Shown here: positions 5,307-61,580 of the stretch, in pieces
Layout: every line of letters begins with the position of its first letter
How positions within the stretch are numbered: the first letter of the stretch is position 1
From: Paramarasmius palmivorus
Lineage: Eukaryota; Basidiomycota; Agaricomycetes; Agaricales; Marasmiaceae
Assembly: GCA_037176845.1 (NCBI GenBank)
Contig: JAYKXP010000152.1
Coordinates: 40,655 to 104,654 of the forward strand
Direction: 5' to 3'
DNA length: 64,000 nucleotides
Program-made: the position numbers and the translations under genes
Notes under the pieces: generated by a model
Told to the model about the DNA's origin: nothing
Database searches by the model: none
Seen by the model: the letters and a program-made list of their open reading frames with translations, nothing else

Positions 5307-8242
5307 GGCAAGCCTGATTAAAATCATACCGCGCATCTTGGGTACAGCCACGCTTCTCCTTCACAACCCGTTGATATTTCTCATGTTATATCAATGCCGA
5401 AGCAGTCGTTGATTACAATCTGTCATATGTGGGAAAGAACTTACTGGAATGTGTCAAGATGCATCATGGCCTTCCGGTGCGTTATCTCTCCGACTCGGGA
5501 CGAACATGAAACGAACGACACATTCAATACGAGTACACTACCAGATCTGACGGCGCGCAATCATAATCATCGGGAGTGGTCAAGGCAGCCTCTCTTCATA
5601 GTACATAGCAGAGATCATTCCACGTAGTCTCCGCTTCTCTCGTCACGTATCCCCTGCTCGTCTCTTCCCCGTTCCTGCAACTGGCATTCACGACAGTCGA
5701 AAAGGATTGGTGCTCGCATGCAGTACAAAATTATGAGTATGGGAGGAGGCGAGATGAGTATGGCTCTCTGGGTAGGATAAAGCAAACGCGCAGAATCTGA
5801 GAATCTGAGTGAGAAAGACGACGTGGGGATCCCGAAAAATGGAAAGAGACCAGCAGGCTGAAGCCAATTGACCCCAAGACAACTGCGCGGACAATCCTCG
5901 GGGTGATGAGATATAGACAGCGTTAGTAAGAGCCTAGGAAGGCGAGGCGAGCGCAAGATGCTTCTTGAATTATCTTGAGGAACAGGTTGCGAGAATTGAA
6001 AACTGTTCTGTAATGCCACTCGCCTCCTCTCCTTCTCCTTCAAACGGATTAGGGTAGCATTCCATTAACAATGAACCATCTTCCCCAGTTAGGACGTTTG
6101 CGGAATTCTCCAGCGCGATATCCACCATATCATCCATACCGAGTCTCATTTCTAATTCCATAGCGTTACTAATATCCAATCAGGATCTTCTCGGGAGTGT
6201 TGTGAACTCTCTGTCGCGTTTTCGTCAGCTAGAAGTTTTCACATGGGCCCAGGATCGCAAAAGTGTCCTTCGATCTTCACCAGTGACACGCAGTTACACC
6301 CCACAAACCGAGTACGAACACGTGCTGCGCCTCAAGGCAACTGTCTATATGTATAAACTTCCTCGTGAGCCACACTGCCATCTATGCTGGCCGTATCTAC
6401 TCTTCCCTGTAGATGTACTTTACTGGAAACACGGAAGATTAACGACACAACGCTGACACTCGATTCGGTCGTCTGCCGATGGATGTACACCCATCTCAAG
6501 AATAAGACACCCAGTAGTAGCGTGGTCTCCGAGCTCGACTGGGACCTTTGTCGTCGGTGATGAGGATCATTGCTCGATACGAAAACAAGAATGTTCCTGT
6601 TACCAGGTATACGGCGCTGAGGATGATGACCTATGGTATGAAAGCGGGACTTTGGATTTGCACTGAATAGTGGTAGTTAATGGTGCAATGAGCTTTTGTA
6701 TGATTCTATTTTTGAGATCGATGAGTTTGATTTTGACTACCCCGCTGCCTGCGGACAAGATACGGAAGCGGCCAAACGACATTGATACAAATTTGATGGA
6801 TTGATGATGTTGGAACAAAGGCTGTCATACGATGATCACACCAAACGTTACATGTAAGGACTCTTCATTGGTACATTATATTGTATTGACACTTGGGAGT
6901 CCTCAAGTTTGCTGTCTTGAGTGGTACCTAGTAAACAAGTCCAAAATAACGGCAATAGCCCACAGTCTGATGCAGCAGTAGTACTGACTCTTGGCTCTGC
7001 GTCTACAAGAATCTACGTACTGATACTCGTCGCCTCATGGTAAACTGGTATACTTGTGCTCTTCTGACTCCATCGCATACTGAGTTGACTTTGGGGAATC
7101 GAATGAGGATTACTGTATGCTATCTGCTTCGTTGAATATGCCACGGTGAGGATCTGAGCAAACAGCATTAGTGGCGCTACAATGCTCACCCAACCAGATT
7201 GCAGTAAGCAATCGTGTCACGTTAACTGCCGTTAAAACACGCTGAGATGTTTGTCTCGCAAGCAGTGATCATCGTGAGAATAGTCCTTGATATCAGCGTT
7301 GCAAACGGAGGTATGGGTGACAAAGTCAAGACTCGGCCACATCGAAGTATAGCACACAATTCCATCACTCTACGGTCTATCGAACAGGATGTTTATAATG
7401 GGACTCGAAGACATACCTGCCACGGTGTACTGACCCACAGAAGACGTTTTTCCTAGTTCAGTAAAAATGGCATAGCATGCGGCGTTGTTCGATGCAGTAT
7501 GTGTCGAGTGAACACTCTTTCAGGAGAGACCTGGCCGCAGTACCTTTGTTGCATATTATTGAGACCCGAGTAACTTTACTCTGACGTTTTGACAGAATTC
7601 TTGAGGTGAGTCGCAGAGCTACGATGAAGGGGGTGCATTCGGGGAAAGCCCCTTTGTCTCAGGCTGATACTATTCACGCAACTTGTGGCTTAACATTAGG
7701 CTTTGATCTTGACTAGCAAGTTGTACAATTCCGAAATTTATAAAGATCTCCAGGGGTTTTTGTATCTATTCAATACACTCCCGAGTTTGTCTAATATTCC
7801 TTCGTCGTAATATCACGATCTCTTTGAGTTGAATACTTTTGTGTTGTGCTGTCATATTCACGGATCACTTGCAAGCTCTGCTGAGTACATTCACTGCGCA
7901 CCAGCTACAGTACCAAGGCTATGAGCGTGTCGGTCACGGTTCAATCTCATCGGCGGAAGTTCCTCGCCGTGGTTCGCGAAAGTACTAGCGTGACATACTT
8001 CACTTGTCAAATTCGAAAGCGAGATGCCTCTCACACACGTTGTCCTTGGTTCGATCTCATCCACTGTGCATGATACCGATCTCATGGTCCATCTTATTCC
8101 TTACAGTGAACTTGCAAGCGAGAGAATGAGATATAAGTAATGCCCTATTTGACTAGTAAGTGCATCATTACCTTACTGCCCTTGTACTGGTATCTCTTTC
8201 TTGTGGTCATCAGACATCCCAGCATTTTTCATTTAGACGACT
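5307..8242. other. Long gene-poor stretch with a possible gene remnant
   Basis: No complete gene is supported. Between about 6190 and 6560 on + there are open pieces in different frames (ending CRWMYTHLKNKT ... LDWDLCRR) that resemble the C-terminal end of an F-box/LRR type protein but cannot be joined without frame jumps. A 70-residue open frame on - at 5970-6179 has an acidic composition and no known motif. From 6560 to 8240 I see nothing coding. A TATAAG lies near 8130, about 110 bp ahead of the precursor gene at 8243. Confidence 0.4.
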
Positions 8243-8715
8243 ATGCGAATCTCTACCGTTGCCTCTGTAACCATGTTCTTCCTGCATGCCAGTGGGCTCC
8301 CAATGACTATGGTACGTTCACTCGCGGGAGAATCCTCGTAATCGACGTTCTTGATCTGAGATTCCTTGTGCAGAATACGCCTGCGCAGCCTGAAAACAGG
8401 AAGTCGAACTTCCGTACTGAAGACGTCGAGGTGCGGCCGTCATCGTCCTCAATTCCTCAAAAAACTACTAAAGCCATTGTGTCTTAGCTTGACAATACCT
8501 CCGCCTCTAAAACAGAAGACATCTTCGCCGTTCGTCTAGGGCCACCGTACTGGGCACGCCACGAGGGGCATACTGTTCGTCCAGGGCCCCCGTATTGGAA
8601 ACGTGATTCCGGGGATGACGCCACGGAAGGTTCTAAGGACAGTCACGTACGTCCTGGCCCACCTTATTGGAAACGCACAGGCGAAGGCCGTAGCATCGTT
8701 GATCTCCCAGAGTAA
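8243..8715 (+). CDS. Kex2-type repeat-peptide precursor (VRPGPPYW repeats)
   Basis: Three exons give a predicted protein of 117 residues. Exon 1 (8243-8311) encodes a signal-peptide-like start, MRISTVASVTMFFLHASG. A 62-nt intron (8312-8373, GTACGT...GTGCAG) leads to exon 2 (8374-8430). A 57-nt intron (8431-8487, GTGCGG...CTTAG) removes an in-frame TAG and opens exon 3 (8488-8715). Exon 3 carries VRLGPPYW followed by AR (residues 57-66), then VRPGPPYW-KR at 72-81 and again at 96-105, with acidic spacers between. KR is the cleavage site of Kex2. The repeats differ mainly at silent third positions, which suggests selection on the peptide. The last cut leaves an acidic tail ending LPE. This is the layout of fungal repeat-peptide precursors (pheromones, KEPs, dikaritin RiPPs). 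The -RPGPPYW core resembles the -KPGQPxY/W end of ascomycete alpha-pheromones. Function is unknown. The GTGCGG donor is the weakest point. Confidence 0.7.
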
Positions 8716-8985: not shown

Positions 8986-10236
8986 CTAGTTATCTAATTT
9001 CCAAATCTTAGCAACCAGACTGACTCTCGGCGAATAATCCAACAATCCAGCGTGAAATAGCGGATCCACGTAGATGGGTGCACACCATATGAGCCATCCA
9101 ACCACCCATAAGTACCCCACAAATCGACACCTCCCAGAATAATCTCCGAATGCATGGATCACACCCGACTCCACCGTGATCGCCATGGCTTGGAGCACAA
9201 AGAAAAGTATACTTTGAAAGGTCGTGAAGCTGCGATGAAGCACTATGTCACCGAGATAGTGTATCGCACCCGATAGAAAGAAGGCCGTGTAGCACACAAC
9301 GAGGTTATATGACACGCTCCCGCGGTCAAAGCGAAAGGTCCTAGAGGCAAGGAATCGACCGTATGGCAGGATCATCTGAAGAAGCACGAATGAGCAAGGA
9401 ACGCGGGACTTTGAGGATGTACGGAGCCCTTACTGGACGGAAGAGTTGATGCCAAGTACGTCTGAAACTAGTAGCTTAGGTCTCAAAGAATAGAACCAAT
9501 CACAACTCAAAGCTTACCCCCAAAATCCGCGGATAGTCGAAGCATATCGAACGCTCCCAAAGAGCGGCGGCCACTCGTGAGGCTTTGATAGTCCTAAACA
9601 CACAGAGACTACTGAAGTGATATCGTACATCGCTGACATAGACGTGGCAGCAGATATCGCAAACGCTCCGGTGTTGACACATCTCCAAATGAAGGTCGTA
9701 TCGGCGATGGATGGCCCCCCGACGTGAAAGGCAGGTATGAGCCCTAAGTAGGCGTTTAGCCCATCGAGAAGGAAGAATTTGATGGATCCGGTGATTATCT
9801 GCTTCATCACGAACGATATAGGTTTTGTTGACGCCACAGGGGATGGGGATATAGCAGATTTGGGTTCGTGAGACCATCCGATGCCTCGAGGGGTACAAAG
9901 GAGCTTGAAGGACGTCCTTATCCGCGAACTAAATGATGTGTGCCCTTTCCCATCCATTGCATCTCCGGTGCCCGTCTCAATGGGCGTGCTGTCTATTACA
10001 CTCCACGCAAATGCGTTCAGGAAGAAGCTAACGAAGTATAGCACCAGTGCATAATCTGCGACTACGTTCCCGAGAGTCATCACAAAGATGACTCTGTACA
10101 AGACGAAGACGAGGGGAATCAAGCATAGTTGTCGAAACTGTGATGGTTTTATTTCGATGGCGATCCAATACGTGAGCAAGTACAGGATAATGTACCATGC
10201 TGGGAGTGAGGATCGTGCGTGCGGTTGGTTTGTCAT
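8986..10236 (-). CDS. Wax-synthase-like membrane-bound O-acyltransferase
   Basis: The protein begins MTNQPHARSSLPAWYI and has repeated hydrophobic spans (for example YIILYLLTYWIAIEI and FRQLCLIPLVFVLYRVIFVM). The key signature is split by introns: WPPLFGSVRYASTIRGFWG at the end of exon 1, then RTWHQLFRP in a short exon, which together form the RxFWGRxWHQ-type box of wax-synthase-domain proteins. The last exon contains FFLSGAIHYLGD, whose histidine fits the membrane-buried catalytic His of the MBOAT-like fold, and ends KIWKLDN. Fungal members transfer acetyl or acyl groups to hydroxyls of small molecules, often terpenoids in natural-product clusters. It converges with the repeat-peptide gene (270 bp apart) and is divergent from the pseudokinase gene. 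The exact substrate cannot be read from the sequence. Confidence 0.75.
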
Positions 10237-57500: not shown

Positions 57501-59121
57501 AGTCAACAGTGATGTGGTTTGACTTTTCTTTTCAGATATACTACAACTTACCCCGCCCAAGTATTCTGGGAAAATTGGTGGCGTCTGGGCTGGCAGCGCC
57601 TCTGTGGAGATACGACAGTCATCAAAAACGAACATTTGAACGAAAGACAGCTTACAGGTTTCTTCAAACTGCTAGAGAACGTTCGCATTAATTCCACTTC
57701 AAGCAATCCCCGTTCAAGTTGGTTGCTCATCCTTTAATCCCATCTCCCATCTCCTGTTCGTTCTCTTTCAGGCCGAGCCCGAGACTTGCATTCCATTTCT
57801 GTTCGCCGATGTTTGACTACCACGATATCGGCAGTGCCCCCTGGCTGAATTGCTCCTGCCATAGCGAGTCAACCAACTTACGTAGCCCAGCGAGCAGCAC
57901 CGGTATACCTCCAGCAATCCTATCGCCGTCACCGTCAAGCGAACGAATTACCTGACTCGTCTCTTGTACAGATGCGAAACCGGCGTTTGTCTCAGCTTTG
58001 TAGAGGGAGCTTTATCTAGTAAGTGATATGATACTGCAGTCCATTCTTCATAATTATTACGGAGGTTGGTATACAAGTGCCAAAATGAACTATGTATGCG
58101 AGGTCCAAATCGGGACATTCTGAGTTGTGGGCTCCCGCTTTGTCGCTCAACAATACGAGCTGGATACCGAAGCAGTCGAGTAAAACTGTCGAAAGGTACG
58201 AAACAATGTCCAGTTTCAATACAATCTTCTGCTATGGGTCCACTGGACTATGTCTTGCTCTCAAGTATTGTTACTGTAAGCACCCATCAGTATTCGTGAA
58301 ACGAACGACAATCGCACCAGTGCCAAAAGCATTTTAATTCCCATTTCAACATTGCGTGTATCGCCCTTGGTGAATATTCTGCGTGTGAATCAACCATAAT
58401 CGGGTTGAGAACGCGCTGAAAATGATTTTCTATGGCATAAAATAGATGCCGGAATAGAAAGAAGGGATATGTACGGTCTAAACAGCGGGTATGGACTGTA
58501 ATAGGAATGGAACATTGACAATCCTATCAGATTTGCTCTTCTTCAACGCCTGGAGGTACTCATGCTTCAATTGATTGCAGACGAGTATAACCCTCTCATT
58601 CACTCGCGCGAAACGCTGAGAGTGACGAGCATCATCAAGTACAGCAACTATCGGGAACATCATCCCCGGGTTGAATGTTCACAGGACCTCCCGCCCATTC
58701 TCTATGTAGTCTAATGTTCAAAGAATTTCCTCTTCAAAATCAGTACATTTTCACCGTGAAGGAAACCTTAATCCAGCTTCCATCGCGGCAAACTTCCATC
58801 GCGGCAACATGCTCCGCCAAAAATACTTCGACAAGGGCGAATGGACAATTTGATTCACAGCGTGAATGCTAATTGACTGCTGATGGAGTAGTGCTACCTG
58901 AGGGTCCAAGCGGATGTGGCTTCGTTTCTATCAATGGAATATAAATTAGAGCGCTCTTTGGTTCCCTGGTAGTCAGCTGTGAAAGGCAGGCATGCCTCGT
59001 TTCGCTTGATGATCATTCTGGCTGATGTAAAGTATCGAGCCAATTCAACGAATTGCGCCAAACTGTACCAATTGGTTGTGGTTTAAAATTGCATAGTGTT
59101 GCAGGGCGTCATCCCATTCCC
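54529..59121. other. Long stretch without a resolved gene
   Basis: Several frames on + are open but unrecognised: 54895-55326 (143 residues, no motif), 55460-55530 (MPRYILKSKGKDSCWLIAGR, followed by a GTACGT donor), 56028-56294 (WNVAFSGKLSCFDALGD, WYLSMGSWSYQIQTG) and 57519-57737. Their short length and apparent donors suggest one or two multi-exon genes of a secreted or surface type, or relics. I could not assemble them. Nothing is seen at 58.35-59.1 kb. Confidence 0.3.
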
Positions 59122-59989
59122 ATGTCAAACAAACGGCAAATGTACACTCCCTTACCACAAGAGCCAGAGGAAACTGACCAATCTGGTGACTCTAGTCTAT
59201 GTATAATCGGTCAGATCAAATACTGACTTCCACAAAGCCAAAAAGACAACGATTGCAGTACGGCTATGGATGGGTGTCGTTGCAGCTACCACTTTGTTGA
59301 ACTTTGCCTTCGTCATCTATTTCACCTACATATCATTGGAGCTCCCCAGCTATGACCTTTCGACGCTGGAGTACGGCAACACGTATATCGGTTTTGAAAC
59401 ACTCTACAATAACACAGTGGCCATGGAGTGGAAACCGATCTTGAATAAGGCACGCTACCTTCGACCTATTACCGAGAACACACCCCACGAGGTCATGGAA
59501 GTCGACATTAGCTATAGGCTCGTTCCGGATGGCTACCTACCGTCGTCTCGGGGTCGGAAACTGATGATAAGCGAGCAGGTGAGGTCAATTATTCCCATCT
59601 CCTCAAAATGTTAACATGCTCAGATGTCCACCGTTGCACAATTTCGTACCATTGACTGGGGCATGGAGCGATGCAAGTTAATTCTTAACATTCCGCTAGT
59701 AAATATGAGCGGATTCATGTTGAATCCGGAGCTTAACAGGGTCGATGTCTGGGCTCTCGAATCAGAGTTACCTTCATATTTCAAAAGCCCAACTTGGGAC
59801 AATAAGCCTGCAAGAACCAGACTTGTTGCCACATTCACTGCGTCACCCGGTCAAAGAAACGAATCACCAACATTCCCGTGCCTTGCTGCATCAAATTACA
59901 ACTTCGAGATGGCGTGTTCGGCAGCCACTCCGTTTTGTCATCTCGATCTCATGGATGTCGAAAATAATCAATTGAGTAGGTTCGTTTGA
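59122..59989 (+). CDS. But2-C-domain-like single-pass membrane protein
   Basis: Exon 1 starts MSNKRQMYTPLPQEPEETD. An intron of about 38 nt leads to KKTTIAVRLWMGVVAATTLL and a membrane span through VIYFTYI. Then YGNTYIGFETLYNN, a second intron after SEQ (GTGAGG...CTCAG), and FRTIDWGMERCKLILNIP, VDVWALESELPSYFKSPTWD. The N-terminal cytoplasmic tail, single span, IGFETLY box and D(W/Y)GME(R/Q)CxL box match the Agaricomycete But2-C-terminal-like family, often found next to UstYa-like genes. The domain's role is unknown. It lies in tandem with the UstYa-like gene, 125 bp ahead of it. The 3' end (NNQLSRFV) could include one more intron. Confidence 0.65.
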
Positions 59990-60113
59990 TCCGTATTTCA
60001 GCAGAAAGTGACACATACATTCCTTAGTTTTCTACTTGGAGCAGAGGCAATCTATTTGAGAGTGGGCAGGGATAGCTAACATAAATAGTCCGGCAACAAC
60101 CTTTGTATCTGGC

Positions 60114-60827
60114 TTGAAAAAAATTGGTTTTGATAGGTATCAAGTACAACGGGGGATGCCGGTTCCTGTCTACATAAACCTCATAAAAGAAATACATCCA
60201 ATTCTCATTCGAGTAAATCCCATGCAGCCTTTGCGATATCCTCACATCATTATTGCAATCAATATTGCTCTGGTCAGTGTACTTGAGTACAGGATCTTTA
60301 CGTCTCAGCCATCGGATCGAGTATATGGTACGTTCCCAGTGCCAAGGTTGTCACGAGTTATTCATTACAATCCACAAGATGAAATACACTGTCTAGAAGA
60401 CGACGCATTGTGTCTCTGGCCAGTGGTTGGTGATAGGCTGGTTCGGATGTATGTACAGGATGCGAATCGTTACTCTCTTGACGACAGTCTGGAGACCGAC
60501 AGGGAATGGAAACAGCTGTTTCCAGGACACGGTATTGTCCATCTAGGCAGCAGGGGGGATATGTACCTTCCCTCCATGTTCCACCAATTGCGTTGTCTCG
60601 ACATTCTCAGGATCGGCGTGGTCCGAGTACAAAAGACCAATGGCCTGAACCATCCTAATGAGACAGAGCTCATCAGCCACTGTCTGAATTATATGCGACA
60701 AATTGTGCTTTGCAATTCCGACTTACACCTGCACCCCATTGTTAGGGAAGCACGAGAATGCGTCTGTCGGGACTGGAGGGAGGCATATACAAATCTTGGT
60801 CGAAATCAAAAGGCTTACCCAATGTAG
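60114..60827 (+). CDS. UstYa-like (DUF3328) protein
   Basis: The frame is open without introns. Starts at 60114, 60156 or 60222 are possible; Met at 60222 (MQPLRYPHIIIAINIALVSV) best fits the family, which has one N-terminal membrane span. The C-terminal half carries LFPGHGIVHLGSRGDMYLP, FHQLRCLDILR and ISHCLNYMRQIVLCNSDLHL, then CRDWREAYTN. UstYa proteins have two HxxHC-type motifs, HQLHCL and HC(x)xxLR; here the second is kept and the first reads HQLRC. Family members act as oxidases or other modifiers in fungal RiPP (ustiloxin-like) pathways, in the secretory route. No repeat-peptide precursor lies within several kb. Confidence 0.75.
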   Translation: MKKIGFDRYQVQRGMPVPVYINLIKEIHPILIRVNPMQPLRYPHIIIAINIALVSVLEYRIFTSQPSDRVYGTFPVPRLSRVIHYNPQDEIHCLEDDALCLWPVVGDRLVRMYVQDANRYSLDDSLETDREWKQLFPGHGIVHLGSRGDMYLPSMFHQLRCLDILRIGVVRVQKTNGLNHPNETELISHCLNYMRQIVLCNSDLHLHPIVREARECVCRDWREAYTNLGRNQKAYPM

Positions 60828-61580
60828 CTTTGCAATAAAAGTATAAATTAGACGAAAGCGAGACAAGAGACAATTGATCCTCAAGAGTGAAAGCTCCGAG
60901 TATATGCTATCTACATGTAACCCTTATCCTGTCACTGAGTTACCTGGAATGACAAAATATGAACTTATGATCAGCCGTTTGCCTTAGCAGGCGCTCGTGT
61001 ATCCACCGTTCTTTGCTTTATCAGTTCGATAATCATGTAAACCACATAATGCGCTGTTGCCTTACTTAGCAGTGAGAATTACATTTAGCGAGACATTTAT
61101 TGCCAAATACAAGAGGTGCCCTCGTAGATTAGATGTGTATAAATAGGATTTACAACAGAAACAAAAGAGAAGGCAAAGGACAGAGTTGGTGTTGAACTAA
61201 CAACCTCTCATTCTGCGGTGATTGGTAACATAATACCCCGTAGGGGTCGGCTCGTGGCCGGTGGATTCGGGCTGATTTCAAACCAGTCTTGTTGAATTCT
61301 ACCGACTGTTCCTTCGACACAACTCTACTGTGGCAATGATGGATGATCCAAACAGCGGAGCGAAGGACCTAGTAATATATAAGTCCGCAGCTTTGGCACA
61401 TAGGAGACTTTATGCAATGCACCCAATAGTTACGAGCAAACCAATAAACAGGAATGATTTTCCGCAAAACATTATGATCAAACACGACGCCCGAGACGTG
61501 ACCGTAATGCAGATCGACAAGTATTGCAACAAGCTAGTTTACACTGCACATAACTCTTGGGCTCAGGCCCAAATGCAGTG
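60828..61580. other. No supported gene
   Basis: A 94-residue frame on + (61330-61614) has no motif. A T-arm-like sequence on - at about 61195-61215 has no matching acceptor stem. Confidence 0.4.

Follow-up and report, generated by a model that had tools for sequence, protein, structure and literature searches.

A small gene of Paramarasmius palmivorus encodes three VR(P/L)GPPYW repeats that are real and not the product of chance. It lies in a stretch of 64,000 nucleotides on contig C152, referred to here as the window. Judged by analogy with peptides of other Agaricomycetes, the predicted product is a secreted, KEP-like precursor that probably yields linear peptides ending in Trp. In the reading that we favor, and regard as likely on balance, the precursor is a diverged sibling of the STE13-type KEPs of Agaricomycetes, and the copy in the window is probably a nonsense allele. 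We favor this reading because of the three repeats, the KR sites, the silent divergence between repeats, an intact second copy, the likely presence of the processing machinery, and the similarity to an array on contig C20 of the same genome. Counting against it are that there are only two dibasic sites, that repeat 1 ends in AR, that the STE13 signature is lacking, and that our searches returned no homologue from elsewhere.

Organization of the putative precursor gene

The gene in the window corresponds to the NCBI hypothetical protein VNI00_017026 of P. palmivorus (Marasmiaceae; 117 amino acids [aa]), and its features are listed in Table 1. An earlier note on this DNA had described three octapeptides, two of them followed by KR; all three were confirmed. 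The AR behind the first repeat is monobasic and, we assume, would serve Kex2 weakly at best. If intron 1 is left unspliced, the frame stops at 8341. The sequence ATATAA at window positions 8131 to 8136, about 110 bases 5' of the start codon, is a possible TATA box.

Table 1. Features of the precursor gene, its neighbor, and the C20 array (window positions unless a contig is named)
Feature	Position	Strand	Description
Precursor gene	8243-8715	+	ATG at 8243, stop ending at 8715
Exon 1	8243..8311	+	Start codon and plausible signal peptide MRISTVASVTMFFLHASG/LPMTM; encodes MRISTVASVTMFFLHASGLPMTM
Intron 1	8312..8373	+	62 nt, GTACGT...CTGA...CAG; absent from both NCBI proteins
Core-bearing exon	8374..8715	+	In-frame stop 8485-8487 in window copy; single exon in C95 copy
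Putative intron 2	8431..8487	+	57 nt (19 codons), GTGCGG...CTAA...TAG; open coding VRPSSSSIPQQTTKAIVSQ in C95 copy
Repeat 1	8530..8553	+	VRLGPPYW; VRPGPPYW in C95 copy
AR behind repeat 1	8554..8559	+	At most weak, monobasic Kex2 site
Repeat 2	8575..8598	+	VRPGPPYW
KR behind repeat 2	8599..8604	+	Predicted Kex2 site
Linker	8605..8646	+	DSGDDATEGSKDSH; one XA dipeptide in register, without repeated STE13 pro-sequence
Repeat 3	8647..8670	+	VRPGPPYW
KR behind repeat 3	8671..8676	+	Predicted Kex2 site
MBOAT_2 gene, wax-synthase-like	8986..10236	-	Tail to tail neighbor; three-exon model; 56% to Moniliophthora roreri protein
KEP-like STE13-type array	C20:742050-742668		Signal-peptide-like start MLVHSYLPAVLISLVAATSAAPVAL at 741799

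When the octapeptide tandem was used as a protein query, its own genome gave nothing despite the presence of the gene. Such a query is too weak for short repeats, and we therefore employed a DNA pattern, GGNCCNCCNTAYTGG, which had 13 matches in the 68.3-Mb genome, compared to 8 for the backward control pattern. Six of the 13 were the three repeats in both copies of the gene (the second copy is described below), and a dibasic site followed none of the other seven, which argues that the repeats are not due to chance. We also looked for identical tetrapeptides occurring twice before [KR]R in the window, in 14 stretches of C95 and C152, and in one further stretch; this yielded the precursor gene in its two copies and a KRKR stretch of low complexity, and nothing else.

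Spacing between successive repeats is uneven, at 45 and 72 nt. This irregularity, together with the presence of two dibasic sites only, would also suit a small secreted proline-rich protein that acts uncut, its KR pairs being incidental. We consider such a protein very unlikely, as KR stands directly behind two of the three cores, which is also the arrangement in the C20 array.

Exon 1 encodes a plausible predicted signal peptide, as the earlier note had proposed. The hydrophobic stretch is present and is followed by A-S-G ahead of a possible cut, in keeping with the rule for signal-peptide cleavage. The prediction is nevertheless weak, since an equally hydrophobic stretch was found in 12% of the 720 open ATG contexts of the window. 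The N terminus is alike in VNI00_017026 and in the protein of the second copy, VNI00_015222, save for one residue.

A second copy of the gene on contig C95

The second copy lies on contig C95, inside a 6.3-kb alignment that is 95.1% identical to the window. It corresponds to VNI00_015222 (136 aa), is consistent with two exons, and contains three perfect VRPGPPYW repeats. The codon that is a stop in the window copy is a sense codon here, and the C95 core exon is open throughout. The C95 copy probably carries the intact form of the gene, and the window copy, probably a nonsense allele, may be null.

Contig C152 and the region C95:127173-190994 share eight blocks in the same order, 84 to 97% identical, with large gaps or insertions between them, and window positions 59100 to 60900 have a second copy on contig C205 at 96%. 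The Rpb2 family matched on just 3 contigs in a genome search, so the assembly looks mostly haploid, and we rejected a duplication of the entire genome. The observations on C95 and C205 fit two haplotypes; in such an assembly, these contigs would be residual haplotigs or else duplicates (segmental duplication). The C95 copy is probably the other haplotype of the window copy.

The 117-residue, three-exon model of the earlier note gives the same protein as VNI00_017026, but its second intron is doubtful, as the C95 copy is open there. VNI00_017026 omits this stretch, while VNI00_015222 reads through it. In favor of the intron is its frame-keeping GTRNG/CTRA/TAG layout, which was found ahead of only 38 of the 1,569 TAG sites in the window. 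Against it, a GT that keeps the frame but lacks the other elements stands before 53% of these sites, which often allows gene prediction to bypass a TAG. Also against it, the stretch reads VRPSSSSIP..., where VRP resembles the head of another repeat, and the proposed GT lies at those V-R codons. Either intron 2 is real in both copies or it is the predictor's detour round a nonsense allele; in our judgment, the detour is the likelier of the two. The earlier note had held that retention of intron 2 in transcripts would tell against the gene. The intron may not exist, and its retention would end the protein of the window copy before the repeats, and not that of the C95 copy.

Constraint on the repeats

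Between the repeats, six of the seven variable nucleotide positions in the window copy, and six of six in the C95 copy, are silent, in agreement with the earlier observation that the repeat codons differ mostly at silent positions. Single changes are silent in 19 of 72 possible cases, and on the assumption of independent changes, six of six would arise by chance with a probability of about 3e-4. Conversely, all six coding differences between the window and C95 copies (8300, 8414, 8461, 8485, 8537, and 8567) are non-synonymous, one of them being the stop and the one in exon 1 a missense change; a seventh difference falls in intron 1. Should intron 2 exist, two of these would be intronic, leaving four coding differences, all four non-synonymous. 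Constraint is thus visible only in the silent differences between repeats. The proposal that the peptide is conserved finds support there, but not between the two copies, nor in any relative outside this genome among the proteins searched. These patterns suggest that one peptide sequence was formerly maintained across the repeats, and they give no sign of present constraint.

We compared the divergence between the two copies inside and around the gene. It amounted to 1/69 in exon 1 and 5/342 in the core exon, compared to 90/2047 upstream, 4/270 just downstream, 56/1242 in the MBOAT gene, and 56/2165 beyond it. A decaying orphan gene, whose layout is vestigial, whose window copy has been inactivated by the nonsense codon, and whose C95 copy is under drift, would account for the in-frame stop, the six non-synonymous differences, the lack of homologues elsewhere in our searches, and the absence of a dibasic site behind repeat 1. 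Such decay would not lead us to expect that all six changes between the C95 repeats are silent or that the C95 core exon is fully open. The core exon has also diverged less than the upstream region and the MBOAT gene, though its divergence equals that just downstream. We regard decay as an unlikely but credible account of the gene.

Searches for relatives

We compared the C95 protein with a collection of 5.77 billion proteins. Two of the 236 candidates reached an E value of ≤10, both from this genome, and none came from elsewhere. With residues 62 to 136 as the query, 2 of 119 candidates did so, and again no relative outside this genome was present in the collection. This search depends on shared exact five-residue words and would miss unannotated small genes. 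As a control, the protein model of the neighboring MBOAT_2 gene retained 43 of 1,528 candidates, headed by proteins of Moniliophthora roreri (56%), Marasmius oreades (41%), and M. fiardii (44%), which indicates that Marasmiaceae proteins are covered by the collection; P. palmivorus's own MBOAT protein was absent among the control matches listed. Conservation of the repeats in relatives, on which the earlier note had made its proposal depend, was not found among annotated proteins; at the DNA level, the searches covered this fungal genome alone. One weak match, C2:38622-38828 (E 0.3), was rejected as a relative, since no Kex2-flanked repeats were seen on reading it.

In the texts of the papers searched, VRPGPPYW, PGPPYW, and GPPYWKR did not occur, and the same was true for PHAVSW, AVSWKR, and GPPYAVSW. 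On present sequence evidence, the precursor appears to be known only from P. palmivorus.

An array of Trp-ending cores in the same genome

The pattern TGGAARMGN{18,48}TGGAARMG had 89 matches in the genome, compared to 91 for the backward control, which is chance level; one of the 89, at C20:742567, was picked by eye. It belongs to an array with 13 Trp-ending cores, as counted by eye, and EAEPEAEP-type pro-sequences. The cores include VRPGQAMW-KR(D), GPPHQVTW-KKR, GPPHAVTW, GFPHAVSW, GAPQAFW-KR, GPPYAVSW-KR, and AYPHAVSW-KR. This is the arrangement described for STE13-type KEPs of Basidiomycota. The array shifts frame once, which could reflect an intron, a true frameshift, or a mistake in the assembly.

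A BLASTP comparison of VNI00_015222 with this array, made as a single pair, gave an E value of 2e-4 and aligned VRPG...WKRD...TE...PGPP...WK. The Smith-Waterman score was reached by 9 of 2,000 shuffles keeping W-[KR] and by 1 of 2,000 free shuffles. A plain count of core identities was reached by 571 of 20,000 shuffles and is weaker than the alignment score. In whole-genome searches with either precursor, the other was not returned at an E value of ≤10 among the best 5 and 2 candidates scored. The two precursors share the VRPG...W-KRD frame and PGPPY; the array differs in its 13 cores, its STE13 pro-sequences, its greater length, and its one frame change. The similarity, which was noticed after the fact, is weak but above chance and is suggestive of homology.

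A bolder reading would make PGPPYW a lineage-specific signal that split from the alpha-pheromone-like KEPs of Agaricomycetes and lost STE13 processing, with one nucleus of a dikaryon carrying an intact allele and the other a null one. If this were true, the nuclei would differ in whether they send the PGPPYW signal. We consider it improbable.

Surroundings of the gene and processing enzymes

A Pfam scan of all six frames of window positions 1 to 30000, with stops read as X, detected only MBOAT_2 (E 4.7e-6) and BTB (E 7.3e-5). The MBOAT_2 match of the neighboring gene is weak at genome scale: a genome search for the family listed 6 stretches, and the neighbor was not among them. Its relatives from the control search all carry PF13813, and the gene could serve as a synteny anchor for the locus in relatives. 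Animal MBOATs acylate secreted peptides. We considered the neighbor as a peptide acylase and found this unsupported, the gene being wax-synthase-like.

Judging from family matches, processing enzymes are likely present in the genome. The P domain of proprotein convertases (Kex2-type) was found at 2 places on contig C58, and a DPPIV_N peptidase was found on contig C144, DPPIV_N being a broad family that also matches 5 of 14 control prokaryotes. In our model, the signal peptide encoded by exon 1 would send the precursor to the endoplasmic reticulum. In the Golgi, Kex2 would cut behind the two KR, and Kex1 would strip K and R, leaving free ...PGPPYW ends. N-terminal trimming would halt at prolines and give rise to linear DSGDDATEGSKDSHVRPGPPYW, (VR)PGPPYW, or GPPYW, by analogy with DDDPEGPPAPSW and GPPAPSW of Coprinopsis. 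The precursor would probably be a shortened, diverged sibling of the Agaricomycete STE13-type Trp-ending KEPs, one of which is on C20. Its role would likely be the one proposed for those KEPs, as an extracellular signal or a biotic-interaction peptide and not as a mating pheromone.

The Tyr-Trp core and the Kex2 layout would also be expected of a dikaritin-like RiPP, in which UstYa (DUF3328) oxidases would act on the PGPPYW released by Kex2 and cross-link its Tyr and Trp to form a cyclic peptide. UstYa matched 36 stretches in the genome, of which the only one on C152, at window positions 60531 to 60746 (C152:101185-101400), is about 51.8 kb from the gene. None of the 36 lies on C95, a contig that extends for only about 3.7 kb beyond the gene, and the Pfam scan of window positions 1 to 30000 displayed just the two families named above. 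A cross-linked product is accordingly doubtful, and we give it little weight. The UstYa stretch in the window has a second copy on C205. Elsewhere, UstYa stretches are grouped on C5, C26, C84, and C205, which are possible RiPP clusters.

Comparison with known precursors

KEPs with alpha-type signatures are reported for Basidiomycota (Le Marquer 2019; PMC6339444), with 5.30 KEPs per strain and a UstYa gene near 6.1% of them (Umemura 2020; PMC7329392). Many basidiomycete KEPs end in a C-terminal Trp, and Trp-ending peptides of Agaricomycetes were detected by mass spectrometry, among them GPPAPSW and DDDPEGPPAPSW of Coprinopsis cinerea KEP 447393 in culture supernatant; in the same paper, six C. 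cinerea KEP knock-outs are described as having no phenotype (Vogt 2022; PMC9769878). The earlier note had inferred that this basidiomycete makes a novel signaling or modified peptide. A secreted Kex2-repeat precursor is still the best reading and the peptide sequence may be new, but the layout was known (PMC6339444, PMC7329392, PMC9769878).

The published definitions of a KEP call for at least 3 repeats of at least 8 aa between sites (PMC7329392) or at least 4 fragments at KR/RR (PMC6339444). The precursor contains similar short repeats beside Kex2 sites in one protein. It stays outside the thresholds, having three 8-aa repeats but two KR, which give just 3 fragments, and we therefore term it KEP-like and not a formal KEP.

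Although the mating pheromones of basidiomycetes are prenylated a-type peptides, many of these fungi also encode secreted peptides that resemble alpha-pheromones and whose use is unsolved. Taken alone, the gene adds another peptide precursor to those awaiting characterization. A genome that combines a long STE13-type array with a shorter relative, one of whose alleles may be broken, gives an opening for studying how such peptides originate and decay.

Like the precursors of ascomycete alpha-pheromones, the one described here is predicted to combine a signal peptide with repeats that Kex2 sets free; unlike them, it is without the STE13 signature. The earlier note had drawn a comparison with alpha-pheromones; the repeated XA/XP (STE13) dipeptides of their precursors are absent here. 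A search for the STE2 receptor family gave no match, and the family matched no control either, so that this result carries no weight. An alpha-type mating pheromone in a basidiomycete, which the Trp-ending, proline-rich repeat peptide and its Kex2 sites might bring to mind, is extremely unlikely, given the absence of the repeated dipeptides and the prenylated a-type peptides described as the mating pheromones of basidiomycetes (PMC9769878). The dikaritins (ustiloxin, phomopsin, and asperipin) share with the precursor, as predicted here, a signal peptide and Kex2-cut repeats, and also Tyr in the core; they differ in that no UstYa gene is found within 51 kb of the precursor gene and in that its core looks unrelated.

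The closest likeness is to C. cinerea KEP 490115, KEP 447393, and Pleurotus KEP 1091723, which have a signal peptide and short Trp-ending cores released by Kex2 (PMC9769878), as is predicted for the precursor; this likeness is drawn from published descriptions. Among measured peptides, GPPAPSW and DDDPEGPPAPSW of C. cinerea come nearest, looking like PGPPYW that carries an acidic extension at its N terminus (PMC9769878). The precursor is unlike STE13-type KEPs in that DSGDDATEGSKDSH, after the first KR, is without repeated XA/XP pro-sequences, in that it has two dibasic sites, and in that Trp directly follows PPY.
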